30,577 nucleotides of DNA from IMG/VR virus record IMGVR_UViG_3300025872_000206, positions 1-30,577 of that record. One strand, written 5' to 3'. Positions 8,441 through 24,532 of this stretch are shown in pieces. The notes under the pieces were generated by a model. The model did no database searches and was not told where the DNA came from. It saw only the letters and a list, made by a program, of their open reading frames with translations. Origin of the DNA: a virus. Position numbers and translations under genes: made by a program. How positions within the stretch are numbered: the stretch's first letter is position 1; the number at the start of each line of letters is the position of its first letter.

Positions 8441-8456
8441 GTAACTAGCTAGTAAC
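8441..8456. promoter_or_regulatory. 16-bp dispersed motif, site 1 (GTAACTAGCTAGTAAC)
   Basis: Lies in the leader of the first early gene, between the promoter and the ribosome site (TAGGAGAG). Member of the seven-site GTWACTANNNAGTAAC family. Confidence 0.75.
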
Positions 8457-8470
8457 TTAGGAGAGAATCA

Positions 8471-9037
8471 ATGAGCAAAAAGCATCAGCACAGCCCCCAA
8501 GCAATTGGGGCACACTTCGCACAAGTGCAAAAAGACATGGGCGGCAAGCTCATGGAAACCCTGAGACAGGCAGTGTGCGAATATGCAGCAGGGCAGGAAG
8601 CAGAATACAAAGCGATGATTGAGGGGTATGGAGAGCAGGCACTTTCCCTATACGAGAAGGGAACAGCAAAAACCCGCAAAAGCGAATTCAAGCGAGTAGC
8701 AGACGCAGCAGCAAAAAGCGAAACACGCCAAACCCTGCTAACAATCATGCCCTCGTATAGTTCAGTTCAGAAGCTCGCGGCAGACCTGCGGAAGCTTGAG
8801 AAGGGAACAGCAGAGATTGACGAAGATGGAAAGGTGAAGCCAGTAAAGGCTGAGAAGGCAGAAGGGGAAGGAGAGGAAGGGGAAGGGGATGAGGTTGTGG
8901 TGAAGGTAGACTCTCAACCCGCCATGATAGATACCCTTGAGAAGGTGATGCAGGCAGTCTATGATGCTGGATACCTCAACGCGGCAGACCTCATCCAGCA
9001 GGCAATGGCCAGCATCGGGCGAGGCGAGAAGGCATGA
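8471..9037 (+). CDS. First early gene, unknown function
   Basis: 188 residues, Ala/Glu/Lys-rich and helical. The N-terminal half (HSPQAIGAHFAQVQKDMGGKLMETLRQAVCEYAAGQEAEYKAMIEGYGEQALSLYEKG) is followed by a charged linker with EGEGEEGEGDE (about 130-140) and a C-terminal helical pair (IDTLEKVMQAVYDAGYLNAADLIQQAM). No enzymatic motif or membrane segment is visible. As the first gene after the divergent promoter, with a good GGAGAG ribosome site, it is probably abundant early in infection. Roles in host takeover or DNA binding are possible but unproven. Confidence 0.8.
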   Translation: MSKKHQHSPQAIGAHFAQVQKDMGGKLMETLRQAVCEYAAGQEAEYKAMIEGYGEQALSLYEKGTAKTRKSEFKRVADAAAKSETRQTLLTIMPSYSSVQKLAADLRKLEKGTAEIDEDGKVKPVKAEKAEGEGEEGEGDEVVVKVDSQPAMIDTLEKVMQAVYDAGYLNAADLIQQAMASIGRGEKA

Positions 9038-9043
9038 GAGAGC

Positions 9044-9095
9044 GCCCCGCAAGGGGCTTGCTTAGGCAGGCCTCTTGAGGATGCACTTTTGCATC
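9044..9095 (+). other. Double hairpin between the first two early genes
   Basis: GCCCC-GCAA-GGGGC (9044-9057) and GATGCA-CTTT-TGCATC (9080-9095) fill the 74-nt gap. The first is not followed by a T-run, so this looks more like an attenuator, RNase site or mRNA stabiliser than a full terminator. Confidence 0.5.
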
Positions 9096-9111
9096 GTCAA
9101 CTGGAGCTTTT

Positions 9112-9369
9112 ATGTTTTCTACCATTCGTGAGTTTTTTGCAGCCCGTAAATATGTCCAGCAGCATGGCAATAGATTTTTGACAGTTTATGCTGGCAATGG
9201 TTTTGTCAATGGGCAAGTGTCAAGCATTGGGATGTTTTCTGTTACAATACGAAAAGCCCGCCCAGACAGCAACAGATTTGTCAAGGTGAAGCACACAAAT
9301 GTTTTGCGTGTCCACCGTGACCACATGAGGCTGAAGGTGAAGCAAGAGAAGCTTGCTTTGTGGGTGTAA
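9112..9369 (+). CDS. Small basic protein, unknown function
   Basis: 85 residues, rich in Lys, Arg and aromatic residues: MFSTIREFFAARKYVQQHGNRFLTVYAGNG, then a beta-like middle and a basic C-terminal helix (HRDHMRLKVKQEKLALWV). GGAG lies 5 nt upstream of the ATG. No known domain is recognised. The high positive charge would suit nucleic-acid binding, but nothing proves it. Confidence 0.65.
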   Translation: MFSTIREFFAARKYVQQHGNRFLTVYAGNGFVNGQVSSIGMFSVTIRKARPDSNRFVKVKHTNVLRVHRDHMRLKVKQEKLALWV

Positions 9370-9436
9370 CATATAATGCAAGAGCATTCCAACGAGTGCT
9401 TTTGCGTGGCAATGTTGCCAGCTTAGGAGCATACAA

Positions 9437-9517
9437 ATGTCCGACCTACAATTCACCCTTGCGTGTTTGTCCATTCTTGCAGCTTGGCTGCTCATGGAGG
9501 TTTTGAATGTTGTCTAA
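9437..9517 (+). CDS. 26-residue membrane micro-protein
   Basis: MSDLQFTLACLSILAAWLLM plus EVLNVV: almost entirely one hydrophobic helix. AGGAG sits 7-8 nt upstream of the ATG. Its 3' end overlaps the start of the Gp88-like gene by 11 nt, suggesting coupled translation. Function unknown; small inner-membrane peptides are common in phage early regions. Confidence 0.55.
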   Translation: MSDLQFTLACLSILAAWLLMEVLNVV

Positions 9518-10145
9518 CACATCCAAGCTTGGCTGCAAGAGCTGGAGCTTGCAAGCCATAGAAACCTGCCCTGGTTCTGTTGGAGCTAATGGGCAGCTTG
9601 TTGAGGTTTGTCAAGGCTGTTATGCCACGACAGGCAACTACAGGTTTTCCAATGTCAAGCGTGTTCGTTCTGTTAACAAAGAGGAATGGAAGCTCACAAG
9701 CTGGACACACACAATGATTGATTTGCTCAAGCACGAGAGCCATTTCCGATGGTTTGACAGCGGAGACCTCTATTCCCTTGAGCTTGCAGAAAAGGTGTAT
9801 GATGTTTGCAAAGCAACCCCGTGGTGCAAGCATTGGATTCCTACAAGGATGCACAAGTTTGTCAAGTTTCAAGAGGTGTTAGAGAGGTTGAACGCCCTTG
9901 ACAATGTTGTTGTCCGGTATAGTGGAGACAACATTGATGAAGCACCAAAGGGAAAGTGGGTGTCTCTTGTCATCAAGCCACACACAAAGCCCGACATGGC
10001 ATATGTTTGTCCCGCCTACCAGCAGGAAGGCAAATGCAATGGGTGTAGGGAGTGTTGGAGCAAGCAAGCTAGGAGCATTGCCTATCCAGCACATGGAAGG
10101 AAGATGATTAAAATTGTAACTATCAACCACAAGGAGCAGACATGA
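9507..10145 (+). CDS. Gp88-like cysteine-rich phage protein
   Basis: 212 residues with ten cysteines (10, 21, 35, 38, 101, 107, 168, 177, 180, 183). The layout includes ETCPG..., VCQGCYA, RWFDSGDLYS, HWIPTR and CPAYQQEGKCNGCRECW. The CPG/CYA pair, the R-W-x-DSGD block and the TR motif resemble the mycobacteriophage gene product 88 family (family knowledge), whose biochemical role is unknown. The C-terminal CxxCxxC cluster could bind zinc or an iron-sulphur centre; this is inference. The start is supported by GGAGG 7 nt upstream. It overlaps the next gene by 4 nt (ATGA). Confidence 0.7.
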   Translation: MLSNTSKLGCKSWSLQAIETCPGSVGANGQLVEVCQGCYATTGNYRFSNVKRVRSVNKEEWKLTSWTHTMIDLLKHESHFRWFDSGDLYSLELAEKVYDVCKATPWCKHWIPTRMHKFVKFQEVLERLNALDNVVVRYSGDNIDEAPKGKWVSLVIKPHTKPDMAYVCPAYQQEGKCNGCRECWSKQARSIAYPAHGRKMIKIVTINHKEQT

Positions 10146-10390
10146 GCAAATATGCAGAGACAAACAAACTAAAGAAGGGCACTAGAGTGGTTCTTCGCAA
10201 TGGGTGGGAAGCCATCATTGAAGACAATAAGCGTGGTGCAATTCGTATGGCAACAGTGTTTGGTACATATACAGAGATGGGGAGCATATATGCCCATGAC
10301 ATTGCAGGGTATAAAGAGGGAGAGTTTTGGGTGAAGCTTCCATACATTGGAGAGAATTTTCTGGAGCTCTTAATGAGGGAGGCAGCATGA
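10142..10390 (+). CDS. Small phage protein, SH3-like beta fold suspected
   Basis: 82 residues. The pattern KKGTRVVLRNGWEAIIEDNKRGAIRMATVFG...GSIYAHDI is an alternation of short strands like small SH3/KOW-type barrels, followed by an acidic C-terminal helix (GENFLELLMREAA). The start overlaps the upstream stop, with AAGGAG upstream. Function unknown. Confidence 0.7.
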   Translation: MSKYAETNKLKKGTRVVLRNGWEAIIEDNKRGAIRMATVFGTYTEMGSIYAHDIAGYKEGEFWVKLPYIGENFLELLMREAA

Positions 10391-10581
10391 CTATGCTAGT
10401 AGGTGGAGCAGTGGAAAACTTTCGTTTGCTTGCCCTTAGACAAGCCTTGAAGCTGGAAATTTATGGGATGCATAAGAGGGGGCGCAGTGCCTATTCCATC
10501 CTCAAGGAGATGGGTTTTAAGGGCTCTAAAGAAGAAATTTTTAAGCAGCTATCAGACATTCGTGAGGAGTTTTTAGGATGA
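10387..10581 (+). CDS. Small helical protein, unknown function
   Basis: 64 residues from ATG 10387, which overlaps the upstream stop (ATGA) and follows GGGAGGCAGC; a longer in-frame start at 10327 would lie inside the previous gene. The helical, basic segment ALKLEIYGMHKRGRSAYSILKEMGFKGSKEEIFKQLSDIREEFL resembles a helix-turn-helix pair (SAYSILKEMGFKGSKEEI). Possibly DNA-binding; unproven. Confidence 0.65.
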   Translation: MTMLVGGAVENFRLLALRQALKLEIYGMHKRGRSAYSILKEMGFKGSKEEIFKQLSDIREEFLG

Positions 10582-10712
10582 AGAGATATACACATAGCGA
10601 AATATGCAGGATGTATGACAACAACCCAAACATGACTTTGTTGCAACTGTCAAGAAAGGTTGGCATTCCTATTCGTGTATTGAAAGAAATACTAATGGGG
10701 AACAACATATGA
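10578..10712 (+). CDS. 44-residue helix-turn-helix-like micro-protein
   Basis: ATGA overlaps at both ends lock it into the operon (start 10578, stop 10710-10712). The segment MTLLQLSRKVGIPIRVLKEILM has the spacing of a helix-turn-helix, with the turn at VGIP. N-terminal KRYTHSEICRMYDNNP precedes it. It could be a small DNA-binding regulator and a candidate partner for the dispersed 16-bp sites, though no direct link is visible. Confidence 0.6.
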   Translation: MKRYTHSEICRMYDNNPNMTLLQLSRKVGIPIRVLKEILMGNNI

Positions 10713-11101
10713 AGGTGTTTGTCTATTTCAATTTACACAAGAAGCTTTTCTCTGTTAGAGCTTTGGAAGGCAAGAGCAAAGGCAAGGTTGTTGCACATTT
10801 GCCTAGCTTGTGGCTTGACACGCCTGAGTTTAAGGTGAGCAAGGCAGGCAGACAGCGTGTGCTTAGGGAGCAGGTGAAGAATGTCCATGCTGGTGTGGCT
10901 GGCTATTGGGAGGATGAAAGCTCCCTCTATTTAGCAGGCTTGACATGGCATAAAATAAGGTATAATCCCTACTTGTTTGATAGTTTTGTAGACCATACAG
11001 AAAAGCCTATATGGTTTGCAGATGTAGCTAGGCTGTGTGTTAACAATAACAAGCCTATTCTTGAAGCTGGTGTTTATGAAGGAGCATATGATGGGTCTTG
11101 A
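10709..11101 (+). CDS. Conserved phage protein, unknown function
   Basis: 130 residues beginning MKVFVYFNLHKKLFSVRALEGKSKGKVVAH, with KVSKAGRQRVLREQVKNVHAGVAG in the middle. This N-terminal pattern recurs in unrelated phages, as far as I can recall, without known function. The start overlaps the previous stop (ATGA), and the end overlaps the next gene by 11 nt. No catalytic motif is visible. Confidence 0.75.
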   Translation: MKVFVYFNLHKKLFSVRALEGKSKGKVVAHLPSLWLDTPEFKVSKAGRQRVLREQVKNVHAGVAGYWEDESSLYLAGLTWHKIRYNPYLFDSFVDHTEKPIWFADVARLCVNNNKPILEAGVYEGAYDGS

Positions 11102-11528
11102 TATGTACTTGAAAGGAAAACGCTTCATGTGGTACAAGGAGCGTGAGGACGAAGCTTGGCAAGAGCTTGACAAATACACCAAAGGTAGGAAAGTGTCTCT
11201 CATAGAGCTAGAGCTTGGCTATTGGAGGAAAGCCAATGCCATACATGGCTGGTTTGTACGCAATGTGCAGGGAAATGTAGACAACTGTGACGAATATGTT
11301 GTTAAATACAGCGATCTTGTTAAGCTCAGAGATGTGTGCTTTGAAGCTTTGGCTAACAAAAATCCAGAGCTTCTCCCACCAACAGAGGGCTTTTTCTATG
11401 GTAGCTCAGCAGTGGACGAGTGGTACTGGGGAGAAATTGACAGCACCTATGAGATGATGAAAGACCTCTGTCAAGATGAGGACATCATCAATGGTGTGGT
11501 TGATGTGTTCTACCAGAGCTCATGGTAA
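11091..11528 (+). CDS. Conserved phage protein (MGLDMYL family), unknown function
   Basis: 145 residues from ATG 11091 (AAGGAG upstream). An in-frame ATG at 11037 would add 18 residues inside the previous gene and is less likely. It starts MGLDMYLKGKRFMWYKERED, continues ELGYWRKANAIHGWFV and ends with an aspartate/tyrosine-rich region (SAVDEWYWGEIDSTYEMMKDLCQDEDII). Such MGLDMYL proteins are frequent in phages, without a proven role. The stop codon TAA (11526-11528) lies inside the second 16-bp motif. Confidence 0.75.
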   Translation: MGLDMYLKGKRFMWYKEREDEAWQELDKYTKGRKVSLIELELGYWRKANAIHGWFVRNVQGNVDNCDEYVVKYSDLVKLRDVCFEALANKNPELLPPTEGFFYGSSAVDEWYWGEIDSTYEMMKDLCQDEDIINGVVDVFYQSSW

Positions 11529-11540
11529 CTAGCGAGTAAC
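11525..11540. promoter_or_regulatory. 16-bp dispersed motif, site 2 (GTAACTAGCGAGTAAC)
   Basis: Overlaps the stop codon of the preceding gene and lies about 52 nt upstream of the promoter at 11592. One base (G at position 10) departs from the other sites. Confidence 0.7.
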
Positions 11541-11543
11541 CGC

Positions 11544-11603
11544 ATGAGCAACTGGTGGTTCTTAGTGTTGTTCATTGTCTACATTATATGCTTGACAATG
11601 TGA
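11544..11603 (+). CDS. 19-residue membrane micro-protein candidate
   Basis: MSNWWFLVLFIVYIICLTM is one hydrophobic helix. It starts 15 nt after the previous stop, immediately after a 16-bp motif. No good Shine-Dalgarno sequence is visible and its 3' end overlaps the -35 box at 11592, so it may be chance. Confidence 0.35.
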   Translation: MSNWWFLVLFIVYIICLTM

Positions 11604-11620
11604 TAAAAAGTGGATATAAT
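11592..11620 (+). promoter_or_regulatory. Consensus sigma-70 promoter for the replication genes
   Basis: TTGACA (11592-11597), exact 17-nt spacer, TATAAT (11615-11620), followed by the palindrome TACTTATAAGTA. It lies in the only non-overlapping gap of the early module before the primase-helicase. It carries the same GCTTGACAA extension as the two leftward promoters. Probably starts a second early/middle transcript. Confidence 0.85.
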
Positions 11621-11680
11621 TACTTATAAGTACATAAGAGTAGATGCTTATAATAGTAATAATACATATAAGGAATACAT

Positions 11681-11863
11681 ATGAGATGTGTTTGTTGTAA
11701 TGAAAGGCTTTCAGACTTTGAAGCCACACGCAAGAGCTCCTACTCAGGAGAATACTTGGATATGTGCAATGTTTGTTTTAACACCATAAAGGATGTTGTC
11801 GATGTTGAAGAACGAAGCGACTTACGACATGAGAGTGATGAAGCAGGAGAGGATGATGAGTGA
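11681..11863 (+). CDS. Small zinc-finger-like protein
   Basis: 60 residues with two CxxC knuckles (C3-C6 in MRCVCCNE and C29-C32 in DMCNVCF), a treble-clef-like or zinc-ribbon spacing. The C-terminal half is acidic (VEERSDLRHESDEAGEDDE). It is the first gene after the promoter at 11592, with AAGGA upstream. It overlaps the next gene by 8 nt. Function unknown. Confidence 0.6.
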   Translation: MRCVCCNERLSDFEATRKSSYSGEYLDMCNVCFNTIKDVVDVEERSDLRHESDEAGEDDE

Positions 11864-12026
11864 CGAATACCCCACACGAGAGGAATATTTTGTACACTTC
11901 TCTGTCCTAGATGCTGTTGAGAGTGCCAAGATGGTTGGATATGGGGAGTTCATCAGATGTTTTAACAGGGAGTGGCGCAGAGAGCACCCAGAAATAGACT
12001 ACCTATACCAAGAGGAAGAAAAATAA
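11856..12026 (+). CDS. Small acidic protein, unknown function
   Basis: 56 residues from ATG 11856, chosen because AGGAG lies 6 nt upstream; an ATG 3 nt earlier would also work. The sequence MSDEYPTREEYFVHFSVLDA-VESAKMVGYGEFIRCFNREWRRE is helical and charged. The stop overlaps the primase-helicase start by one base. No known domain. Confidence 0.6.
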   Translation: MSDEYPTREEYFVHFSVLDAVESAKMVGYGEFIRCFNREWRREHPEIDYLYQEEEK

Positions 12027-13639: not shown

Positions 13640-13800
13640 GCAAGTGTAAACATTGTATGTTCCCTGAGAAATGCTCATTGAATTGGGAGTTTGGTGAGTG
13701 TTATTATTACGAGTGGCTTGAACTGAAGAGGGACGAGCTACGAGATGAATATGCTGTAGGGTTTGATAGCCCACCTGATGGAGATGAAGATGTTAGTTGA
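13636..13800 (+). CDS. 54-residue cysteine-rich micro-protein
   Basis: Starts in an ATGA overlap with the primase-helicase. Cysteines at 4, 7, 13 and 22 (SKCKHCMFPEKC...GEC) suggest a small zinc site, followed by an acidic tail ending GDEDVS. It is too short for general ORF lists, but the coupling and composition support it. Function unknown. Confidence 0.6.
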   Translation: MSKCKHCMFPEKCSLNWEFGECYYYEWLELKRDELRDEYAVGFDSPPDGDEDVS

Positions 13801-14202: not shown

Positions 14203-14293
14203 CCCTGTTGTTCTTGCCTTGTTATCAAGGCCAAAGAGAAACGCAGGGAAACATAGGAACAGAAAGAAAGAAGCAAAGGAAAAAGAAATATGA
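14171..14293 (+). CDS. 40-residue extremely basic micro-protein candidate
   Basis: An ATG at 14171, inside the end of the previous gene, opens a frame with about half Lys/Arg residues (MAKKKKKKRRNPVVLALLSR then a Lys/Arg tail) ending in an ATGA overlap with the next gene. The exact abutment supports it; the lack of a clear ribosome site argues against. If real it would bind nucleic acid. Confidence 0.4.
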   Translation: MAKKKKKKRRNPVVLALLSRPKRNAGKHRNRKKEAKEKEI

Positions 14294-15486: not shown

Positions 15487-15519
15487 ATATATTGAAACTT
15501 CAGATTAAGGAGAGAACAC

Positions 15520-15663: not shown

Positions 15664-15666
15664 TAT

Positions 15667-15990: not shown

Positions 15991-17696
15991 ACCTCTATCT
16001 CGACATCGAGACAAACAAAAAACATGACAAGATATGGTGTTGCTACACTTGGGATGAGAAGAATGGAATGGTATGTCATACAGAAGCAAGTACACTAACT
16101 ACATTAGTAGAAAAATCAGACAAAGTGATAGGACACAACTTAATCGGATTCGATGGAGTGGTGCTAAGAACTTGCTGGGGAGTGAAGATTTCAGCGAAGA
16201 AAGCGATAGATACATTGATACTGTCAAGGCTTTACAATCCAAGCTTAGAGGGAGGTCACAGTTTAGAGGCATGGGGGAAGAGGCTTGGGAACAAAAAGAT
16301 TGACTACCCACAAGTGTTCTTTGACAAGTATGCACAAGACGGGTTACTACCTAGTAACCTAGATTGTTGGGACACTCCAGACCTAGAGCTTCTCTTTCCC
16401 TATTGTGAGCAGGATGTTTCTTTGTTAGTTGAGCTACACAAACACCTCATTGGTTTGTTAAAAGACTTCTCTCCCAAGAGCATAGAGCTTGAGCATGAGG
16501 TGGCAATTGTTGTTCAGAAACAAAAGGAGCATGGCTTTAGGCTTGATATACCCAAGGCTCAAGGATTGCTTGCTGAGCTACAAGGAAAGATGGGAGACAT
16601 TGAGAGCCAGCTACAGAAAGTGTTTCCTCCCATCATTGAGAAGCGAGTGTCTGAGAAAACAGGCAAGCCTCTCAAGGACAGAGAAATTATTTTCAACCCC
16701 GGCTCCCGTCAACAAATTGCTGATAGGCTTGCTTCTCTTGGTGTTAAGTTTACAAAGAAGACAGACAAGGGCTCCATCATTGTTGATGAGAAGGTGTTAG
16801 AAAACATTGCTCTTCCAGAGGCTAAGCTGCTCTCTGAATATTTAATGCTACAAAAGCGTGTAGCTCAGGTGGGAAGCTGGCTTGAGGAAGTGGGTGTAAA
16901 TGGGCGTGTTCATGGTAGTGTCATCACCAATGGTGCTGTAACAGGACGCATGACACACAGCAGTCCCAACATGGCACAAGTTCCCAACTCAGGGAGCCCC
17001 TATGGAAAGGAGTGCCGTGAGCTTTGGACTGTGGATGAGGGGAATGTTCTTGTTGGTGCTGACGCTTCTGGGCTAGAGCTTAGGATGTTGGCTCATTATA
17101 TGAAGGATGAAGGCTATGTCAAGACGGTTACAGAAGGCAGCTCGAAAGACGGGACAGACGTACACACTGTCAACCAGAAAGCGGCAGGACTACAGACAAG
17201 GGATCAAGCAAAAACATTCATCTATGCGTTCCTCTATGGGGCTGGCCCATCTAAGATTGGGAGTGTTGCTGGTGGTGATGCTAAGAAGGGACAGCAACTT
17301 ATTCATGCCTTTCTTGAAAGCACTCCCTCGCTCAAGGCTTTACGCATTCAAGTTGCCAAGTATGCGAGCAAGGGCTATGTACCGGGGCTTGATGGTAGAA
17401 AGATATGGGTACGCTCCGAACACGCAGCACTTAATAGCCTACTTCAAGGGGCTGGGGCAATCGTGATGAAACAAGCCTTGGTGCTGCTAGACCAACAGCT
17501 TAGGAAACACCGTATTCCCTTTGGCTTTTGTGCCAATGTCCATGACGAATGGCAGATTGAAACAAAGCCAGAATGGGCTGATGTTGTGGGAAAGCTTGCT
17601 GTGAAAAGCATAGCTGAAACTAAAGACATCTTTAATTTAAGGTGTCCTTTGTCTGGGGAATACAAGGTGGGAAAGACATGGAAGGACACACACTAA
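15987..17696 (+). CDS. Family A DNA polymerase (T7-like) with 3'-5' exonuclease
   Basis: 569 residues from a GTG start that overlaps the previous stop (GTGA). Exonuclease motifs: DIET (D6, E8), HNLIGFDG (D56) and YCEQDV (D143). Polymerase motif A is GADASGLELRML (D359), motif B RDQAKTFIYAFLYGAG (R405, K409, Y413) and motif C NVHDEW (H519, D520, E521). Tyr413 occupies the position equivalent to E. coli Pol I Phe762 and T7 Tyr526, a tyrosine type associated with virulent phages (established link; application is inference). It is shorter than T7 gp5 (about 704), so the thioredoxin-binding loop is probably absent. It replicates the genome together with the upstream primase-helicase. Confidence 0.95.
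   Translation: MNLYLDIETNKKHDKIWCCYTWDEKNGMVCHTEASTLTTLVEKSDKVIGHNLIGFDGVVLRTCWGVKISAKKAIDTLILSRLYNPSLEGGHSLEAWGKRLGNKKIDYPQVFFDKYAQDGLLPSNLDCWDTPDLELLFPYCEQDVSLLVELHKHLIGLLKDFSPKSIELEHEVAIVVQKQKEHGFRLDIPKAQGLLAELQGKMGDIESQLQKVFPPIIEKRVSEKTGKPLKDREIIFNPGSRQQIADRLASLGVKFTKKTDKGSIIVDEKVLENIALPEAKLLSEYLMLQKRVAQVGSWLEEVGVNGRVHGSVITNGAVTGRMTHSSPNMAQVPNSGSPYGKECRELWTVDEGNVLVGADASGLELRMLAHYMKDEGYVKTVTEGSSKDGTDVHTVNQKAAGLQTRDQAKTFIYAFLYGAGPSKIGSVAGGDAKKGQQLIHAFLESTPSLKALRIQVAKYASKGYVPGLDGRKIWVRSEHAALNSLLQGAGAIVMKQALVLLDQQLRKHRIPFGFCANVHDEWQIETKPEWADVVGKLAVKSIAETKDIFNLRCPLSGEYKVGKTWKDTH
16343..16358. promoter_or_regulatory. 16-bp dispersed motif, site 3 (GTTACTACCTAGTAAC)
   Basis: Inside the DNA polymerase gene, in-frame coding for residues around GLLPSN of the exonuclease domain. 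Inverted repeat of 7-bp arms with a CC centre. Confidence 0.7.
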
Positions 17697-17890
17697 TGGA
17701 GGAGGATAAACTTCTAAACCTTATTAACACAAGTGACCAAAGCGTTTATCTTTTCGTCAAAGACGGGAAGGTGACAATGGTGTTAGACAAGCTTCTTGAC
17801 ACCGAGTTTTTAGTGAGTTTATTTTCATATGTAACTGCTGTTGTTTTGTCTTCTGATGTTGACAACAGTGGTGGAAATATGCTACACTAA
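17696..17890 (+). CDS. Small protein, unknown function
   Basis: 64 residues from ATG 17696, which overlaps the polymerase stop by one base; in-frame ATGs farther upstream lie inside the polymerase gene. MEEDKLLNLINTSDQSVYLF then VKDGKVTMVLDKLLDTEFLVSLFSYVTAVV suggests a beta hairpin followed by a hydrophobic helix. No known domain. Ends 5 nt before motif site 4. Confidence 0.6.
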   Translation: MEEDKLLNLINTSDQSVYLFVKDGKVTMVLDKLLDTEFLVSLFSYVTAVVLSSDVDNSGGNMLH

Positions 17891-17895
17891 TAGTA

Positions 17896-17911
17896 GTTAC
17901 TATTTAGTAAC
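17896..17911. promoter_or_regulatory. 16-bp dispersed motif, site 4 (GTTACTATTTAGTAAC)
   Basis: In the 40-nt gap before the ssDNA-binding protein gene. Perfect 7-bp arms around TT. A 6-T run and the AAGGAAA ribosome site follow. Confidence 0.75.
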
Positions 17912-17930
17912 ATTTTTTAAAAGGAAACAA

Positions 17931-18374
17931 ATGAAAGCACAAGTTAAAGTAGTTGGTAAATTGTTCTGGGCTAAACACATGGCTGAGCCCAATCGACAGT
18001 TCAACGAGACTAACAATAAATATGAGATTTGCATTGGCGATTTGTCAGATGCTGTTGTCCAGCGTCTAACCAATGAGCTTGGCATTAAGGTGAAACAGAA
18101 GGCAGATGATTCTTATGGAAGGGGCAAATATGTCATCGCTAAGAGCAACTATGTCATTCGGGCTGTCGATGGACAGGGCAATGAAGTTTCTCCAGATCAA
18201 ATTGGGAATGGTACAACGGCTGAATGCACCCTCAGTAGCTATAGCCATAAGCTATCTGCTCTGCATGGCAATGGTGTTAGCATCCTGCACTCCAGTTCCA
18301 GTCCCGGCTTGAAAATTAAGCAGCTTGTGGCTCCTCCTCTGCCTCAAGAAGAAGAAGCTGAAGTGTCTCTATGA
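17931..18374 (+). CDS. ssDNA-binding protein (T7 gp2.5-like OB fold)
   Basis: 147 residues from ATG 17931 (AAGGAAA upstream). The pattern MKAQVKVVGKLFWAKHMAEP...NNKYEICIGDLSDAVVQRL, then YGRGKYVIAKSNYVIRAVDGQGNEV and AECTLSSYSHK, fits the gp2.5-type OB fold seen in T7-like phages. The acidic C-terminal tail LPQEEEAEVSL is typical for SSBs that recruit polymerase and helicase. It lies between polymerase and exonuclease, as expected, and overlaps the exonuclease start by 4 nt. Confidence 0.8.
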   Translation: MKAQVKVVGKLFWAKHMAEPNRQFNETNNKYEICIGDLSDAVVQRLTNELGIKVKQKADDSYGRGKYVIAKSNYVIRAVDGQGNEVSPDQIGNGTTAECTLSSYSHKLSALHGNGVSILHSSSSPGLKIKQLVAPPLPQEEEAEVSL

Positions 18375-19069
18375 TTGCTTTAGTCGATGGTGATGTGATG
18401 TGCTATCGCATTGCTTTCGCTTGTAAGGATGAATCCGAGGGAACAGCCATTACAACAATGGCTGCTTTCTTGGAGGAAATCTTGATGGTTGACTTGGGGC
18501 TGGATAGCTGGCAAATCTTTCTAACAGGAAAAGACAACTTCCGGAAAGAGATAGCTGTCACAGCCCCATACAAAGGCAACCGTACACAAGAGAAGCCTGC
18601 ACATCTAGAGCTATTACGTAACTATCTAGTAACCTCATGGGGAGCTATAGTGAGTAATGGAGAGGAGGCAGATGATTGCATTGCCATCAAAGCTACAGAG
18701 CTTAAAGACGATTGCATCATTGTTTCAATTGACAAAGACTTCTTACAGGTGGCAGGATGGCACTACAATTTTGTGAAGAAAGAAAAACGCTATGTCTCAG
18801 AAGCAGAAGGAATTCGTTTCTTCTACAAGCAAATTTTGATGGGAGACAGGAGCGACAACATTGTTGGCATCAAGGGAGTGGGGCCAGCAAAAGCAGAGAA
18901 GATGCTTGCCAAAGCTACGACAGAGCCAGAGATGCTTGCCGTTTGCTTGGAGGCTCTGGGCAACGAAAGAACTCTTGAGAATGGGAGATTGTTATGGCTA
19001 AGAAGACAGCACCAGCAGCTTTGGGAATTCCCACAAGCTTCCAACTTGCAGGCTGTACATGGAGTGTAA
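18371..19069 (+). CDS. 5'-3' exonuclease (FEN / T7 gp6-like)
   Basis: 232 residues. Metal-binding acidic clusters are visible in order: LVDGDV (D6, D8), APYKGNR (about 65-71), GEEADD (E98-D102), SIDKDF (D121, D123) and LMGDRSDNI.GIKGVGPAKA (D159, D162 plus the helix-hairpin-helix, about 158-175). This is the standard order of 5'-nuclease superfamily enzymes. It removes RNA primers and helps degrade host DNA. The last 76 bases overlap the HExxH gene in another frame; the C-terminal tail after residue about 205 is not conserved-looking. Confidence 0.88.
   Translation: MIALVDGDVMCYRIAFACKDESEGTAITTMAAFLEEILMVDLGLDSWQIFLTGKDNFRKEIAVTAPYKGNRTQEKPAHLELLRNYLVTSWGAIVSNGEEADDCIAIKATELKDDCIIVSIDKDFLQVAGWHYNFVKKEKRYVSEAEGIRFFYKQILMGDRSDNIVGIKGVGPAKAEKMLAKATTEPEMLAVCLEALGNERTLENGRLLWLRRQHQQLWEFPQASNLQAVHGV
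18618..18633. promoter_or_regulatory. 16-bp dispersed motif, site 5 (GTAACTATCTAGTAAC)
   Basis: Inside the exonuclease gene, coding for part of RNYLVTS. Right arm TAGTAAC is exact; the left arm has A at position 3. Confidence 0.7.
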
Positions 19070-19287
19070 AAATTGTACAAGACCTACCAGACATGGGCTT
19101 GTGTGATCCAGCTAAGTATGAAATAAATATCAGAGATGGTATGAATTCTCAGGCAACGCTGGCTACATTTTTCCATGAGCTTGTTCATGCTATTAAATTT
19201 GTAATGGGGGAGACAGATCATAACGAAAAAGAAGTTGAAGGGTTTGGAAACCTCTTACACCAATGGCTTATTACGCTTAAGCTATAA
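18994..19287 (+). CDS. Small HExxH metallopeptidase-like protein
   Basis: 97 residues starting MAKKTAPAALGIPTSFQLAG, with GGGAGA 7-8 nt upstream, so the long overlap with the exonuclease is probably real. The block ATLATFFHELVHAIKFVMG contains HExxH (H61, E62, H65), the zinc motif of gluzincin-type peptidases. EKEVEGFGNLLHQWL follows and may give a third ligand (E80 or E82). It resembles ImmA/SprT-like folds in size and layout, but no certain family is recognised. The substrate is unknown. It may process a phage or host protein early in infection. Confidence 0.65.
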   Translation: MAKKTAPAALGIPTSFQLAGCTWSVKIVQDLPDMGLCDPAKYEINIRDGMNSQATLATFFHELVHAIKFVMGETDHNEKEVEGFGNLLHQWLITLKL

Positions 19288-19651
19288 CGACAGCGAGTGG
19301 ACACCGGCTAGGTTTAAAAGCTTCATCATCTCAGCATTGCGTACAGCAACGAGGAGATGGCCTCCTAAGTTTAAAGCAATGAAGGAGGCTTGCATTGGAC
19401 GCAAGACAAATAAAGCAACAAACAAACTAGCCTATCATTACAAGTGTGCACATTGTAAAAAACTTTTTGTCGCTAAAGACATACAAGTAGACCACATATT
19501 GCCTGTTGTTGATACGTCTGTTGGTTTCCAGGGATGGGACATCTTTATTAACAGGATGTTCTGTGAGAAAGAAAACTTACAGGTGCTGTGCAAGCCATGT
19601 CATTCTGTAAAGACACAGTTAGAAAAGGAAGAAAGGAAAAAGAATGGCTAA
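19235..19651 (+). CDS. HNH endonuclease (start uncertain)
   Basis: Up to 138 residues. The frame has no ATG near its 5' end; TTG at 19235 or 19244 is the possible start, and sequence typical of the family begins at RLSYNDSEWTPARFKSFI. The core shows YKCAHCKKLF, VDHILPVVD, and ENLQVLCKPCHSVKT: two CxxC pairs holding zinc around the HNH/beta-beta-alpha metal site. It may cut DNA for packaging, recombination or competition. It overlaps the HExxH gene by up to 53 nt and the next gene by 8. Confidence 0.8.
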   Translation: MKGLETSYTNGLLRLSYNDSEWTPARFKSFIISALRTATRRWPPKFKAMKEACIGRKTNKATNKLAYHYKCAHCKKLFVAKDIQVDHILPVVDTSVGFQGWDIFINRMFCEKENLQVLCKPCHSVKTQLEKEERKKNG

Positions 19652-19913
19652 GAAAGAAAAGGAACAATGGTATGTCTACCTCACCAGCTATTGGGTTCCA
19701 TTTCCTACATCAGAGTATGGAGGACTGCAAGCTGTAGTGGCTAGGAATGTAGAGGAAGCCATTGAGTTTTTAACAAAACACGCTTTCTCATGGGAGACAG
19801 CCAGCATCAAGGGAGCCGCAGAGCTAATTGAAGCAAAGCTTAAACGTGCTGTTGTGCTGGCATTGGCAGATCAATATGAGGAGCCATTCATTGCAAAGGA
19901 GTTTGTAACTTGA
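19644..19913 (+). CDS. Small phage protein, unknown function
   Basis: 89 residues: EQWYVYLTSYWVPFPTSEYGGLQAVVARNVEEAIEFLTKHAFSWETASIKGAAELIEAK. Beta-alpha-beta-alpha character is suggested by the WYVYL and EAIEFL blocks. It overlaps the HNH gene (8 nt) and thyX (TTGA), so all three are translated as a unit. Ribosome site GGAAGAAAGGAA. No known domain. Confidence 0.65.
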   Translation: MAKKEKEQWYVYLTSYWVPFPTSEYGGLQAVVARNVEEAIEFLTKHAFSWETASIKGAAELIEAKLKRAVVLALADQYEEPFIAKEFVT

Positions 19914-20539
19914 GGGTAGAACTTGTATGGAGCACACCATATGGAGAGGCTCTCATTGCTCAGATGGCTAGGGTGAGCAACCCAACAAACAAACACAACT
20001 CAGAGACAGCCTCTAAGCTTATTGCTTTTCTCATTAGAAATAAGCATTGGAGCCCATTTGAGATGGTGAATGTTTGTATGGAAATTGAAACAACAAGAGA
20101 CATTGCTCGTCAGATATTGAGACATAGAAGCTTTAGCTTTCAAGAGTTTTCCCAACGATATGCAAAGGTGACAAACATTGATGGCTTTAGTGAGGCAAGG
20201 CTACAGGACAAAGACAACAGACAGAATAGCCTGAAGACAGATGATGAATATCTGCGTAACTGGTGGAGGTATGCACAGGTAGGAGTTGCAGACCTTGCTG
20301 AGAAGTGGTATGATGAAGCCCTTGAGAAAGGAATTGCTAAAGAGGTGGCAAGAAAGCTCTTACCAGAGGGACTAACACAAAGCACCATGTACATGAATGG
20401 AACTTTGCGTAGCTGGCTGCACTACATTGACATTCGTTGTGACAAGGCCACTCAGAAGGAACACAGAGAAGTGGCAGAGCAATGCAAAGCTATAGTGTTT
20501 GAACAATTTCCTAGTGTTAAGGAAGCACTAGGTTACTAG
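19910..20539 (+). CDS. thyX: FAD-dependent thymidylate synthase ThyX
   Basis: 209 residues from a TTG start (TTGA overlap with the previous stop). The ThyX signature RHRxxSxxxxSxR is complete: R71 H72 R73, S76, S81, R83 (RHRSFSFQEFSQR). HWSPFEMV precedes it, and LLPEGLTQSTMYMNGTLRSWLHYIDIR follows, the FAD/dUMP-binding region. It methylates dUMP to dTMP using methylene-tetrahydrofolate and FADH2. With the RNR it supports phage DNA synthesis. The stop codon (20537-20539) lies inside motif site 6. Confidence 0.95.
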   Translation: MRVELVWSTPYGEALIAQMARVSNPTNKHNSETASKLIAFLIRNKHWSPFEMVNVCMEIETTRDIARQILRHRSFSFQEFSQRYAKVTNIDGFSEARLQDKDNRQNSLKTDDEYLRNWWRYAQVGVADLAEKWYDEALEKGIAKEVARKLLPEGLTQSTMYMNGTLRSWLHYIDIRCDKATQKEHREVAEQCKAIVFEQFPSVKEALGY

Positions 20540-20547
20540 CTAGTAAC
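20532..20547. promoter_or_regulatory. 16-bp dispersed motif, site 6 (GTTACTAGCTAGTAAC)
   Basis: Perfect palindrome spanning the thyX stop codon, directly upstream of the homing endonuclease. Identical to site 7. Confidence 0.8.
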
Positions 20548-20572
20548 CAATGCTTTATGTAGAAAGTTCACA

Positions 20573-21127
20573 ATGAAAGAAGAGTGGAAAGATGTTAAAG
20601 GTTTTGAAAATTACTTTGAAGTTTCTAACTTAGGTGCTGTTAAAAGTAAAAGAACAAACAAAGTTCTTAAACAGCACATACGAAAAAATGGTTACTGCAC
20701 AATAGCTACACAAATTGGTGGAAGAAAAGGAAAGCACGTATGTTTTAAAGTTCATAGACTTGTTGCTGATGCTTTTTTACCTGCTCCTTCTATTGATATT
20801 GTTTCTGCTAGTCTCAATACTTTTTACAAAAAAGTTATTGTTAATCACAAAGATGGAAACAAACAGAACAATAGTGTAGAAAATCTTGAGTGGTCTACAT
20901 ATAAAGATAATACTATACACGCATGGCAAAATAAACTTAAAACAAAAAAATATGGAATAGATAACCCCGCATCTTTCTTCAAATCTGAAAAGCAAAGAGA
21001 AAAAGCATTTAAAAACTTTCTTATCTCTGGTCTTTCTATGAGAAAATATGCAAAACAAATTGGAACAACTCATTACACTGTTTCAAGACTTATAAAACAT
21101 TACACCTCTGGTTCGTATAATGGATAA
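20573..21127 (+). CDS. NUMOD4 HNH homing endonuclease
   Basis: 184 residues. An N-terminal NUMOD4 module (EEWKDVKGFENYFEVSNLGAVKSK, about 3-26) is followed by the HNH core: VHRLVADAF (H61), VNHKDGNKQNN (N91, H92) and VENLEWSTYKDN (N104-W107). The C-terminal helices (ISGLSMRKYAKQIGTTHYTVSRLIKHY) form a helix-turn-helix DNA-reading tail. It is clearly more AT-rich than its neighbours, with AAA/AAT/TTT-rich codons, consistent with recent arrival as a free-standing selfish gene. Weak ribosome site. The last 22 bases run into the tRNA gene. Confidence 0.88.
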   Translation: MKEEWKDVKGFENYFEVSNLGAVKSKRTNKVLKQHIRKNGYCTIATQIGGRKGKHVCFKVHRLVADAFLPAPSIDIVSASLNTFYKKVIVNHKDGNKQNNSVENLEWSTYKDNTIHAWQNKLKTKKYGIDNPASFFKSEKQREKAFKNFLISGLSMRKYAKQIGTTHYTVSRLIKHYTSGSYNG

Positions 21128-21180
21128 TACAGTGCTCTTCTAAAGCACGAATGCATGTTCGACTCATGCACCAGAGACCA
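21106..21180 (+). tRNA. tRNA-Arg (anticodon UCU)
   Basis: Full cloverleaf: acceptor CTCTGGT/ACCAGAG, D-arm GTAT/ATAC, anticodon stem GTGCT/AGCAC with loop CTTCTAA (anticodon TCT), T-arm GCATG/CATGC with loop TTCGACT, discriminator A and encoded CCA. It decodes AGA and AGG, codons used freely by neighbouring genes. Its first 22 bases are the end of the homing endonuclease gene. Confidence 0.92.
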
Positions 21181-21192
21181 AGAAAGGAACAT

Positions 21193-21384
21193 ATGGAAAA
21201 TAAAATAATGTGGAAATTTACACGCATCAACCAAGAGGTAGGAATACAAAACGATTTAGCAGTTGTTCTTCCTTCTGGAATTCCGTGGACAGAAGTGCTG
21301 GAACATTTTGCTGCTTTTCTAGAGGGCTGCACATATGCTGGTGTGCATAACATCTTAGACAAGAAAGGAGTGTTTGAGAAATGA
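21193..21384 (+). CDS. Small protein, unknown function
   Basis: 63 residues from ATG 21193 (AAAGGAAC upstream; in-frame ATG 21151 would lie in the tRNA). MENKIMWKFTRINQEVGIQN-DLAVVLPSGIPWTEVLEHFAAFLEGC shows a strand then an amphipathic helix. It overlaps the phosphoesterase gene by 4 nt. No domain known. Confidence 0.6.
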   Translation: MENKIMWKFTRINQEVGIQNDLAVVLPSGIPWTEVLEHFAAFLEGCTYAGVHNILDKKGVFEK

Positions 21385-22148
21385 AGCACCTCATCATTCC
21401 TGACACACAATGTAAACCGGGGCACAGCTTTGAACACCTCTCTTGGGTGGGCAAGTATGCAGCAGAGAAGAAGCCAGATGTCATTGTCCATCTAGGAGAC
21501 CATTGGGATATGCCCTCCTTGTCCATCTATGACATAGGCAAGAAGAGCTTTGAAGGACGCACCTACAAGGAAGACATTGAGGCAGGCAAGGCAGGCATGG
21601 AAGCTTTGCTTGCCCCCATCAAGGCAGAACAGAAACGCTTGAGGGATAACAAGCACAAGCAATGGAAGCCACGCATGGTGTTCCTCATTGGCAACCACGA
21701 GGAGCGCATTGAACGGGCTATAGAGAGCGACAGAAAACTAGAAGGACTAATTGGATATAATGATTTCAAGCTTAAAGAAACTGGATGGGAAACATATCCT
21801 TTTTTACAGCCTATTGTTATCAATGGCGTTGCTTATTGTCACTACTTTACTTCTGGGGTTATGGGGAGACCAGTTAGCTCCCCTACTCTGTTGCTCACAA
21901 AAAAGCATATGAGTTGTGTTATGGGGCACGTTCAAGACAGGGGCATTGCCTTTGCTAAACGAGCAGATGGGAAGCGTATGACAGGGCTCTTTGCTGGTAT
22001 TTGTTATCAACATGATGAAGACTATCTGTCCCCACAAACCAACGGCTCATGGTCAGGTGTATGGATGCTCAACGAGGTGGATGATGGAGCCTTTGATGAG
22101 ATGCCTGTAAGCCTGACATATTTGAAGAAGAAGTATAAGGAGGCATAA
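21381..22148 (+). CDS. Metallophosphoesterase
   Basis: 255 residues. Calcineurin-type motifs: IIPDTQ (D8; the usual DxH is DxQ here), VHLGDHWD (D40, D43), LIGNHEER (N105, H106), CHYF (H154) and GHVQ (H183). The DTQCKPG and GDHWDMPSLS..YD..KKSFEGR blocks are those of a phage subfamily (recollection). It hydrolyses phosphomono- or diesters with two metals; the substrate is not predictable. It could act on nucleotides, DNA ends or cyclic nucleotides. ATGA overlap at the start, one-base overlap with the next gene. Confidence 0.85.
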   Translation: MKHLIIPDTQCKPGHSFEHLSWVGKYAAEKKPDVIVHLGDHWDMPSLSIYDIGKKSFEGRTYKEDIEAGKAGMEALLAPIKAEQKRLRDNKHKQWKPRMVFLIGNHEERIERAIESDRKLEGLIGYNDFKLKETGWETYPFLQPIVINGVAYCHYFTSGVMGRPVSSPTLLLTKKHMSCVMGHVQDRGIAFAKRADGKRMTGLFAGICYQHDEDYLSPQTNGSWSGVWMLNEVDDGAFDEMPVSLTYLKKKYKEA

Positions 22149-22309
22149 TGGCTCTCACCCTTATCGACATAGCTGACTTGCTAAAAAGACAAGACTGTGT
22201 TACAATATTAGAACTGTTAGATGTTAATGAAGATGAGCTTGTCGATAGGTTTATGGATAAGCTAGAAGAAAAAGCTGATTTTTTAGAAAGGGAACTGGAT
22301 GAGCTATGA
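22148..22309 (+). CDS. 53-residue acidic helical protein
   Basis: Sequence MALTLIDIADLLKRQDCVTI then LELLDVNEDELVDRFMDKLEEKADFLERELDEL. Two helices with a DELVDRF / EEKADFLERE repeat-like acidic pattern. Start overlaps the phosphoesterase stop; the end overlaps the RNR start by 11 nt. AAGGAGG is upstream. Function unknown; a fold as a small three-helix adaptor is conceivable. Confidence 0.65.
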   Translation: MALTLIDIADLLKRQDCVTILELLDVNEDELVDRFMDKLEEKADFLERELDEL

Positions 22310-24209
22310 AACACCGTGGAGCACTGTTGGCTACCTTACATATAAGCGCACCTATTCACGCCGCTTAGACGAAACTTCTCCCAATAGTCCGACAGAAGAA
22401 TTTGAGGATACAATTGATAGAGTGGTGAATGCTGCAAACAATCAACTGTCTTGTGGCTTCTCGTATGGAGAACAGAAACGCCTCAAGAAATACTTGATGG
22501 AACTAAAGGGGACAGTTGCTGGACGTTTCTTGTGGCAGCTAGGTACTCCCACAGTGGACAAGCTTGGTTTGTCTAGCCTGCAAAACTGTGCCTTCACTGT
22601 TGTTGACAAACCTGTTGAGCCTTTCATTTGGGCTATGGACTTGTTGATGCTGGGCTCAGGAGTGGGCTATAACATTCAGCGAACTAACGTAGAAAAGCTT
22701 CCTCCTGTGAATGCTGAGTTTAAGACACCAACTCGTTCAGACACAGATGATGCCGACTTCATTGTTCCTGACAGCAGAGAGGGCTGGGTGAGGCTGCTTG
22801 GCAAGACGCTTAAAGCAGCCTTCCTTGCTCACGAAAGCGGAAGACAAACCTTCACCTATAGCACCAAGCTTATTCGCTCCAAAGGGGCTCCTATCAAGGG
22901 CTTTGGTGGTGTAGCTTCTGGGTCAGAAGACTTGGTGTGGGGCATCTCTAAGATTGGTGAGATATTGGAGAAGAGAGCAGGCAAGAAGCTGCGTCCTGTT
23001 GATTGTCTTGATGTGATGAACATCATTGGTGCTATTGTTGTGGCTGGTAATGTTAGACGCTCTGCTCAAATTGCCATTGGAGATGCTGACGATGTGGAAT
23101 ATTTGCTTGCTAAACGATGGGACTTGGGAAATATCCCCTCATGGAGAGACAAGTCCAACAACAGCGTGGTTTGTAATGACATTGGAGATTTGCATGAGTT
23201 CTTCTGGGATGGATATGAGGGTAAGGGAGAGCCGTATGGCCTCATCAACCTTAAGCTGTCTCGAAAGGTGGGGCGTTTGGGAGACACCAACTACCCTGAC
23301 CCGGAAGTACAAGGATATAACCCCTGTGCAGAACAGAGCCTAGCTGATAAAGAAACCTGCTGCCTTGCTGAAATATTCCTACCTAACATCAAGAGTAAGG
23401 AAGAGATGCTTGATGTGGCTAAGCTTCTCTATCGTGTTAACAAACACAGCCTTGCCTTGAAGTGTCACCTCAAGAGCACAGAAGCCATTGTTAACAAGAA
23501 CATGAGGATGGGCATTGGTGTAACTGGTGTGCTGCAAGCAACAGAGGAACAGAAGAGTTGGCTCAAGGATGTGTATGAACAGCTACGGGAATATGACAAG
23601 AGCTATTCTGCACAGCATGGCTTTCCTGAGAGCATTAAGCTGACAACAGTGAAGCCCTCTGGTACACTTAGCTTGCTTTCTGGTGTCACCCCTGGTGCTC
23701 ACCCTGCTTATGCTCGTTATATGATTCGGCGTATTCGCATTGCAAGCAACCATTCATTGGTGCAGGTTTGTAAAGATCATGGCTACCATGTGGAATATCA
23801 GCAAAACTTTGATGGGACAGAAGACCACTCAACTGTTGTTGTTAGCTTTCCCTTTAGCCACCCTGAGACAGCCAAGCTTGCTAAGGATATGACAGCCATT
23901 GACCAGCTAGAGGTGGTGAAGTGGCTTCAAGAAGTGTGGAGTGATAACAGCGTAAGCTGCACCGTCTACTACAGGAAGGAAGAGCTTAATGATATTAAGA
24001 AATATCTCAAGAAACATTACAAGAACAATCACAAGAGCTTGTCGTTTTTGTTACATAGTGAGCATGGTTTCAAGCAAGCGCCTCTGGAGGAAATTACGAA
24101 AGAGGAATATGACAATATGGTGAAAGCCACTAAGCTCATCACTCAGATTGACGAGGCTAACATTGGCCTAGAAGATGAGTGTGCAACTGGTGCTTGCCCT
24201 ATCCGGTAG
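22299..24209 (+). CDS. nrdJ: Class II (B12-dependent) ribonucleoside-triphosphate reductase
   Basis: 636 residues. It carries the monomeric class II set: NCAF (C97) and C354 as the active-site redox pair, NPCAE with the thiyl-radical Cys (C343) and Glu (E345), and a C-terminal CATGAC (C628, C633) for reduction by thioredoxin. Other hallmarks are MLGSGVGYNIQ, AGNVRRSAQIAIGD and VKPSGTLSLLSG. It converts NTPs to dNTPs using adenosylcobalamin and needs no small subunit, so it works with or without oxygen if the host makes or imports B12. Slightly shorter than Lactobacillus RTPR (739). It overlaps the upstream gene by 11 nt and is the last large gene of the operon. Confidence 0.95.
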   Translation: MSYETPWSTVGYLTYKRTYSRRLDETSPNSPTEEFEDTIDRVVNAANNQLSCGFSYGEQKRLKKYLMELKGTVAGRFLWQLGTPTVDKLGLSSLQNCAFTVVDKPVEPFIWAMDLLMLGSGVGYNIQRTNVEKLPPVNAEFKTPTRSDTDDADFIVPDSREGWVRLLGKTLKAAFLAHESGRQTFTYSTKLIRSKGAPIKGFGGVASGSEDLVWGISKIGEILEKRAGKKLRPVDCLDVMNIIGAIVVAGNVRRSAQIAIGDADDVEYLLAKRWDLGNIPSWRDKSNNSVVCNDIGDLHEFFWDGYEGKGEPYGLINLKLSRKVGRLGDTNYPDPEVQGYNPCAEQSLADKETCCLAEIFLPNIKSKEEMLDVAKLLYRVNKHSLALKCHLKSTEAIVNKNMRMGIGVTGVLQATEEQKSWLKDVYEQLREYDKSYSAQHGFPESIKLTTVKPSGTLSLLSGVTPGAHPAYARYMIRRIRIASNHSLVQVCKDHGYHVEYQQNFDGTEDHSTVVVSFPFSHPETAKLAKDMTAIDQLEVVKWLQEVWSDNSVSCTVYYRKEELNDIKKYLKKHYKNNHKSLSFLLHSEHGFKQAPLEEITKEEYDNMVKATKLITQIDEANIGLEDECATGACPIR

Positions 24210-24318
24210 GACAAAGTGCTTCTTTTTGGCTAAAAAATCAAGGTCAGTTCAGGGGGTAAAACAGGGGGCTAGTACCTCCCTACATACCCCACATGAACAA
24301 CCCTGATAGAAGGGATAT
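24210..24318 (+). other. Gap after RNR, unassigned
   Basis: 109 bases with no gene. A weak inverted element AGGGGGCTAGTACCTCCCT is present, without a clear T-run. No consensus promoter is visible. Confidence 0.4.
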
Positions 24319-24486
24319 ATGAGCATTGTGTTAAACTTACGTCAAGGAATAGGCTTTGACATTGAATATAATAACGACATTCTTCATGTCATTGAAGTGG
24401 AAGGAAAGGAAACTGTTGCTGAATATGCAGGCATCATCATCAAAATACCATTCCTATCTATATACATAGGTCAGTTCTATGTATAA
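24319..24486 (+). CDS. 55-residue protein at the operon end
   Basis: AGAAGGG lies upstream of ATG 24319. The protein MSIVLNLRQGIGFDIEYNND, then ILHVIEVEGKETVAEYAGIIIKIPFLSIYIGQFYV, is beta-strand-like and resembles the short sugar/carbon-storage-regulator (CsrA) type fold only superficially. No firm family. Ends at the bidirectional terminator. Function unknown. Confidence 0.6.
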   Translation: MSIVLNLRQGIGFDIEYNNDILHVIEVEGKETVAEYAGIIIKIPFLSIYIGQFYV

Positions 24487-24515
24487 AAAAGAAGGGCTCC
24501 TAAGGAGCCCTTTTT
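24485..24515. terminator. Bidirectional rho-independent terminator
   Basis: Stem GGGCTCC / GGAGCCC (24494-24500 and 24504-24510), loop TAA. Five Ts follow on the + strand and six As precede, so it terminates both the rightward operon and the converging leftward one. Its stem core matches the capsid terminator at 1344-1366. Confidence 0.85.
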
Positions 24516-24516
24516 A

Positions 24517-24532
24517 GTTACTAGCTAGTAAC
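24517..24532. promoter_or_regulatory. 16-bp dispersed motif, site 7 (GTTACTAGCTAGTAAC)
   Basis: Perfect palindrome between the convergent operons, 2 nt after the terminator. Its last base belongs to the stop codon of the leftward virion gene. Confidence 0.8.

Follow-up and report, generated by a model that had tools for sequence, protein, structure and literature searches.

A 16-bp palindromic element, GTWACTNNNNAGTWAC (GTWACT-N4-AGTWAC, W being A or T), occurs seven times in the IMG/VR virus record IMGVR_UViG_3300025872_000206, which was analysed over its entire length of 30,577 bases (referred to below as the window) and consists of a rightward module (approximately 8.4-24.2 kb) with a leftward arm on each side. 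Judging from sequence comparisons, we regard it as fairly probable that these sites are operators of one phage-encoded, dimeric regulator binding double-stranded DNA, most likely the product of g1, the first gene of the module (Table 1). The sites, their strict sequence, the conservation of their slots and of their letters at the DNA level, their clustering at promoters and the co-occurrence of g1 and g2 with them were established directly, whereas the sign of the regulation is something that we infer.

All seven 16-mers listed by the original prediction, which had been made from the letters of the window, were recovered. With the pattern given there and up to two mismatches allowed, 14 strand-hits (seven sites, both strands) were obtained against 0.86 expected, and none of 100 dinucleotide shuffles reached 14. 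In a codon-preserving shuffle 488 of 500 shuffled windows had no copy of GTWACTNNNNAGTWAC and 12 had one, and these counts bear out the claim that the repetition is not due to chance. One-mismatch versions of GTWACTNNNNAGTWAC were absent from the window. The described placement could also be reproduced: three sites overlap stop codons (11526-11528, 20537-20539 and 24532), two lie inside the polymerase and exonuclease genes, and the outermost sites frame the module, the first being in the g1 leader and the last just beyond the terminator (stem 24492-24512). The site assigned to the leader of a single-stranded DNA-binding protein gene does lie in a leader, but the protein label was not supported, the frame 17931-18374 having no Pfam match and the longer frame 17841-18374 no PHROG match.

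The consensus was refined with the help of the relatives. Twelve of the 16 positions are fixed, ten to a single base and two to A or T, and G and C are preferred just outside the dyad. The earlier consensus had identified the right sites and was over-specified, since positions 7-10 are free and position 14 takes A or T like position 3. The distinction made there between a palindrome form and a direct-repeat form had to be given up: the two forms are just combinations of two independent W positions, which were AT in 72, TT in 58, TA in 37 and AA in 34 of 201 distinct exact contexts. These contexts come from the window and all related IMG/VR loci collected, with duplicate 60-bp contexts removed and near-identical relatives kept separate if one base differs. 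Site-bearing loci yielded 7 one-mismatch contexts against the 201 exact ones. Similarly, 141 exact and 10 one-mismatch copies were found in the 158 loci (1.45 Mb) obtained with the exonuclease and capsid queries, loci that overlap so that some copies are counted twice, and about 11 one-mismatch copies are expected there by chance, as estimated with equal base frequencies. No pair of positions covaried beyond independence in the 201 contexts; complementary pairs at the W and core positions numbered 109 (102.1 expected), 93 (97.3) and 94 (90.0). The lack of pairing at these positions means that the dyad is read as DNA, and the W/core pattern would best be explained by a homodimer that recognises GTWACT in both halves of the double-stranded site.

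Conservation at the level of the DNA is most apparent in the exonuclease gene. Of the 80 exonuclease loci listed, 39 (71-100% identity) had the site, at offset 247 or 250, and 41 (63-71%) lacked it; because L134, one of the latter, lacks the site at 71%, the boundary follows the clade and not a sharp identity value. Codons were tabulated for 60 of the 80 loci together with the window, leaving out two site-bearing (L099, L140) and 18 site-free loci. All 38 site-bearing rows keep CGT AAC TAY CTA GTW AC[CT] and vary only at N, W or outside positions, and all 23 site-free rows have other codons or residues at this place. Among 32 distinct site-bearing exonuclease sequences 125 invariant degenerate columns were counted, 31 of them with an invariant codon. 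These include Arg CGT and Asn AAC, which are fixed by the site, and Leu CTA, of which the site needs the last base only, while neighbouring codons and the N and W positions vary. The polymerase site is less stable than the exonuclease site: in other site-bearing phages it is found at the matching place or elsewhere (offsets 662, 1478), or is absent, with different codons or residues.

Queries of viral_contigs with the polymerase, the exonuclease and the capsid protein returned at least 80 loci each. Seven of the 80 polymerase loci listed (L007-L013, 71-80% identity) belong to relatives with sites. Among the remaining 73, L040 alone had a two-mismatch match to GTTACTANNTAGTAAC, and the refined motif was absent from 12 whole records drawn from these 73. 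In ten contigs having both module borders, 77 of 80 sites fall within the rightward module, which makes up 43% of the length (binomial probability about 1e-24, treating sites as independent though they are inherited). The module is thus far denser in sites than the arms, as had been supposed; the claim that the leftward arms are free of sites is correct for seven of the ten contigs, one of them the window itself, and incorrect for some relatives. The number of sites per contig was 5-13 in the ten contigs and G021. Conservation in related phages is likewise partial: G001 (polymerase identity 80%) keeps six of the seven slots, and the distant syntenic contigs G028 and G029 have no sites.

When viral_contigs was scanned for pairs of sites spaced by 78-108 bases, with position 3 of the first site being A, 16 contigs were found, of which 14 are g1-bearing members of the clade and two (G040 and G041, loci L343 and L346) are similar phages outside it. 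In both of these, four copies of the 16-mer are grouped locally at spacings of 21-78 bp (mostly 46) and one more lies 559 bp away; these copies are possibly iterons read by a similar protein. Comparable repeated palindromes were not found in the site-free relatives: the GCTGCA-N2-TGCAGC dyad of G028 has 7 copies spread over the whole record (up to 5 in three shuffles), the CTACTA dyad of G037 has 6 (shuffles up to 6) and the GTAGCT dyad of G038 has 6 (shuffles 4). Five close-set GTCTT...TAAGAC palindromes lie between genes, behind TerS, in the site-free G032 (11287-11400).

Sites are clustered at promoters. In 12 modules, 22 of 38 strong sigma70-like promoters of the + strand have the centre of a site within the interval from -100 to +75, compared with a mean of 2.9 and a maximum of 9 in 5000 rotations of the sites, related contigs not being independent. 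Downstream sites are centred approximately +8 to +68 from the promoters and show no helical phasing. Upstream sites are at -44.5, -51.5, -54.5, -64.5, -73.5, -75.5, -76.5, -94.5 and -95.5, and it is suggestive that they share a helical face (Rayleigh p about 0.007 at 10.5 bp, a post hoc value from nine non-independent positions). In four relatives (G002, G007, G023, G024) the g1 promoter is flanked by two sites 102-106 bp apart, at about -76 and +25 to +30. T7-type promoters were considered and rejected: in contrast to T7-like phages, the single-subunit RNA polymerase (PF00940) was matched in none of the ten site-bearing records searched for protein families (eight of them of 38-42 kb), and the same model matched T7 itself and none of 14 cellular controls. 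The lack of a T7-type enzyme makes the host RNA polymerase the likely machinery.

Homologous slots recur upstream of g1 and of g2, at the g3 end or in front of g4, ahead of the g8 promoter (at the stop codon of g7 in contigs that have this gene), after the primase-helicase gene, in the polymerase and exonuclease genes, at the ThyX end and at the module end. Of the 13 site-bearing contigs that extend into the early region, 12 retain the slot before g8, as do G005 and G020; in G026, G027 and G039 this site is present without a g7 match. The slot of site 4 was found, among the loci examined, only in the near-identical contigs G020 and L096-L099, and that of site 6 also in G001, G020, G021 and G039. 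The module-end slot adjoins a terminator-like hairpin in G001, G002, G006 and G007 (by eye), is also occupied in G020, G022-G025 and G035, and is empty in G026, G027 and G034. In the g4 leaders of G005 (732) and G023 (12440) the core of the site is AAGG followed by AG, giving a Shine-Dalgarno-like AAGGAG within the site just before the start codon.

Genes g1 and g2 were present in all 13 site-bearing contigs reaching the early region and in none of seven site-free relatives, of which G028, G029, G032 and G033, with most replication genes in common, are close comparisons. No other rightward gene of the window was distributed in this way among the genes listed; g6 came nearest, with 12 of 13 against none of seven. 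A g1 profile identified 31 IMG/VR contigs, in every one of which a site starts 21-307 nt upstream of the portion of g1 that was matched. The g2 profile identified 32, 30 of which are among these 31; the other two, L323 and L326, begin a short way upstream of g2 and contain two and three sites. Neither a scan of genome_contigs nor the cultured-phage collection contained a match to g1. The AlphaFold model of g1 is mostly helical (mean predicted local distance difference test score, pLDDT, 80.5), with an acidic linker, a C-terminal helical hairpin and a conserved basic helix that contains TAKxRKSEFK. Foldseek matches in the PDB concern mainly the hairpin (residues 141-188) and barely cover the N-terminal core, and a sequence comparison with the PDB gave no match. 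The g2 model is poor (pLDDT 59.8); as a small and very basic protein, g2 is a candidate for an alternative binder or a partner. It is from co-occurrence, position and conservation that we infer binding of the sites by g1 (or g2). The short g5b (10578-10712, 44 aa, sub-threshold HTH_24 match) was dropped as a binder, being found only in G000, G001 and G020.

Bound downstream of promoters, in the leaders of g1, g2 and the window gene at 17931, such a regulator would block initiation or early elongation, and g1 would limit its own operon via its leader site or sites. At gene ends, within the polymerase and exonuclease genes and next to the last terminator it would form a roadblock against read-through, and such roadblocks could turn the early/replication module off and shield the convergent leftward genes. 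Upstream of the g8 promoter its effect might instead be activation or insulation of the replication genes. PF00589 (integrase), PF00239 (resolvase), HTH_3, ParB_N and AAA_31 had no match in the ten records, and with neither integrase nor repressor family matched the phages look lytic, the completeness of the records not being proven. A further-reaching proposal, which we put forward tentatively and with clearly less confidence than that of an operator set, is that g1 represents the first member of an as yet unrecognised class of sequence-specific DNA-binding regulators: together with an invariant palindrome, which is found even within the polymerase and exonuclease genes, g1 would serve an apparently lysogeny-free lineage as a genome-wide timer, in which roadblocks shut the phage's own early/replication module and helically phased upstream sites adjust the replication promoter.

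Several observations weigh against the operator interpretation. G034 has no site before its perfect g8 promoter, and 16 of the 38 strong promoters have none nearby. Arm sites exist in relatives: one in the portal gene of G001, one each in the leftward gene p26554 of G026 and G027, and 3 of the 13 sites of G021, which is outside the ten-contig count as its right border is not readable. Degenerate members are usual in operator sets, and here none stand out. The product of g1 matches no known DNA-binding family or fold, fold searches of the PDB and BFVD giving nothing at E <= 0.001. G036-G038 share few module genes, which leaves only four close comparisons among the seven site-free contigs. The leftward genes ivp (11 of 13) and p26554 (10 of 13; some contigs end before these genes) are also missing from all seven site-free contigs; since these genes too are confined to site-bearing contigs, shared descent explains part of the co-occurrence of g1 and g2, and that of g1 could result from the shared descent of a single clade.

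Among the alternatives, the one that survives best, although we consider it unlikely, is that a host DNA-binding protein, a regulator or a nucleoid factor, binds the sites and is exploited by the phage, g1 and g2 being clade markers or antagonists. A pre-existing host site would agree with the strict consensus, no DNA-binding fold is recognisable in g1 and HTH_3 was matched in none of the ten records, but the syntenic contigs G028 and G029 (exonuclease 70%, major capsid protein 84-87%, TerL 81-82%) lack the sites and lack g1 and g2 as well. A role of the sites in DNA replication, repair, partition or packaging (origin-like or parS-like) instead of transcription appears less probable still. The restriction of the sites largely to the replication module speaks for it, as do the intergenic region preceding g1 in several relatives, which has three or four sites, and the same region of the window, which has two DnaA-box-like TTATCCACA words (8104-8142); such words, however, are found in site-free relatives as well, and several site-bearing ones have none in the region preceding g1, and placement of the sites tracks promoters, leaders and gene ends. 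A parS-like centromere was rejected, and the window differs from parABS-type systems, as ParB_N (PF02195) and the ParA-type AAA_31 (PF13614) were each matched in none of the ten records; other types of ParA and ParB were not searched.

It is improbable that an enzyme acts on the sites, be it in site-specific nicking, recombination or modification or as a homing or HNH nuclease. The all-or-none strictness looks enzyme-like and HNH genes are located within the module, but four of the seven site-free relatives have HNH1 too, HNH2 is in no other site-bearing contig yet appears (36%) in the site-free G036, and the placement at promoters would remain unexplained; recombinase sites were rejected for want of a PF00589 or PF00239 match in the ten records. 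Least probable of all are 6-bp RNA hairpins near ribosome-binding sites that control translation or processing, since, although the palindrome could fold and the leader site of g1, g2 or the 17931 gene ends about 12-20 nt before the start codon in many contigs, the third pair is A-A or T-T in 92 of the 201 contexts, no pair covaries (for which reason the hairpin was dropped as the principal explanation), many sites are within genes or at gene ends, and the g1-leader site of G001 and G007 is much farther from the start.

The interpretation of the sites as operators of a phage regulator invites comparison with known systems. Repeated operators also occur in phages phiC31 (conserved inverted repeats, near early promoters) and P1 (c1 operators), which are temperate and have known repressors; in contrast, intragenic copies are present here and none of the lysogeny families sought was found. 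As regards lambda-type CI/Cro systems, dyad sites lie in the g1 leader and some flank the g1 promoter, g1 being a presumptive regulator; unlike in those systems, HTH_3 (PF01381) was matched in none of the ten records, although 14 of 14 control genomes matched. As described in PMC6550527, PMC9283540 and PMC5712189, the stoperators of L5-clade (Cluster A) mycobacteriophages number about two dozen near-identical sites across the genome, some at promoters and most not, are kept in the lytic relative D29 and are bound by a phage-encoded repressor, one site having been proposed to serve its autoregulation; they are 13 bp long and asymmetric, follow the direction of transcription, bind the repressor as a monomer and have a consensus that varies between subclusters. 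The present sites resemble them in being dispersed in transcribed regions, many away from promoters, and differ in being a symmetric 16-bp dyad, GTWACTN4AGTWAC, and in lacking a recognisable repressor family and an integrase match. As to a homologue of the Cluster A immunity repressor, g1 had no sequence match in the PDB and no significant fold match, the repressor itself not having been compared directly. As neither the asymmetric L5 site nor a lambda-type HTH_3 repressor was found, we assign the sites to neither family. They are best described as probably stoperator-like in behaviour, with stoperators as the nearest known system, and as a variant dispersed operator network outside the stoperator family. 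The original suggestion of dispersed operators or stoperators is thus supported by conservation and promoter placement and requires amendment as to the kinship with mycobacteriophage stoperators; the nicking or modification site mentioned beside it gained no specific support.

A precedent for a delayed discovery of the binder is SPBRE of Bacillus phage SPbeta, described as a genome-dispersed 15-bp motif at prophage promoter regions, the binder of which was unknown for more than two decades and then proved to be a phage protein of unexpected, tyrosine-recombinase-like fold, MrpR (PMC10516654). PF00589 was matched in none of the ten records here, and a diverged MrpR-like protein could escape that model. 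In phi29, early and late promoters are bound by the early proteins p4 and p6, which bring about the early-to-late switch of transcription (PMC3100819). That system, as presented there, involves known proteins and one promoter region, in contrast to the dispersed strict palindrome found here.

The positions of the sites and the associated features are collected in Table 1. The left arm has matches to major head, portal and terminase proteins and the right arm to an internal virion protein; genes of the rightward module encode primase-helicase, family A DNA polymerase, 5'-3' exonuclease, ThyX and ribonucleotide reductase. Neither g1 nor g2 has an above-threshold family match. Pfam matches were obtained for g3 (9507-10145; GP88) and g6 (10709-11101; Phage_L5_gp82, a family named from a gene of mycobacteriophage L5). 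Directly behind the ThyX-end site are an HNH endonuclease gene and a tRNA-Arg (20573-21180); this HNH gene was found neither in the near-identical G020 nor in the other site-bearing contigs compared. A small protein encoded at 18994-19287, with a HELVH (HExxH-like) motif and a sub-threshold metallopeptidase match, is kept in site-bearing and site-free relatives.

Table 1. Positions of the palindromic sites and of associated features in the window
Feature	Position	Strand	Description
Site 1	8441..8456		g1 leader, 14 nt before ATG; TGATATAAT extended -10 upstream (by eye, absent from promoter-scan list)
g1	8471..9037	+	188 aa, first gene of module, candidate site-binding regulator
g2	9112..9369	+	85 aa, net charge +12, second candidate binder or partner
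Site 2	11525..11540		spans g7 stop codon; upstream of perfect TTGACA-17-TATAAT promoter before g8
Promoter before g8 and primase-helicase region	11592..11620	+	perfect sigma70-type TTGACA-17-TATAAT
Site 3	16343..16358		within family A DNA polymerase gene, offset 356
Site 4	17896..17911		leader of gene at 17931; centre about +8.5 from TTGACA-18-TACACT promoter
Site 5	18618..18633		within 5'-3' exonuclease gene, offset 247
Site 6	20532..20547		spans ThyX stop codon
Terminator stem, module end	24492..24512		adjoins site 7; scored on - strand, T run on + strand too
Site 7	24517..24532		between rightward-module terminator and stop codon of convergent leftward gene

Roadblock operators scattered over the genome have been described chiefly in temperate phages, in which they serve to silence the prophage. 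Here a comparable operator network would exist in an uncultured phage group without integrase or known repressor match, and its site is written into essential-looking genes and is letter-perfect across exonucleases down to 71% identity. A literature search for the site sequence gave no paper, and none of the titles or abstract beginnings listed for phiC31 inverted repeats and for scattered or self-regulating operators of virulent or freshwater phages deals with these sites, which provide a simple DNA signature of the phage group. If g1 does bind them, it would represent a new DNA-binding protein family whose target is already solved, and the question would arise why a lytic phage needs module-wide blocks of transcription.

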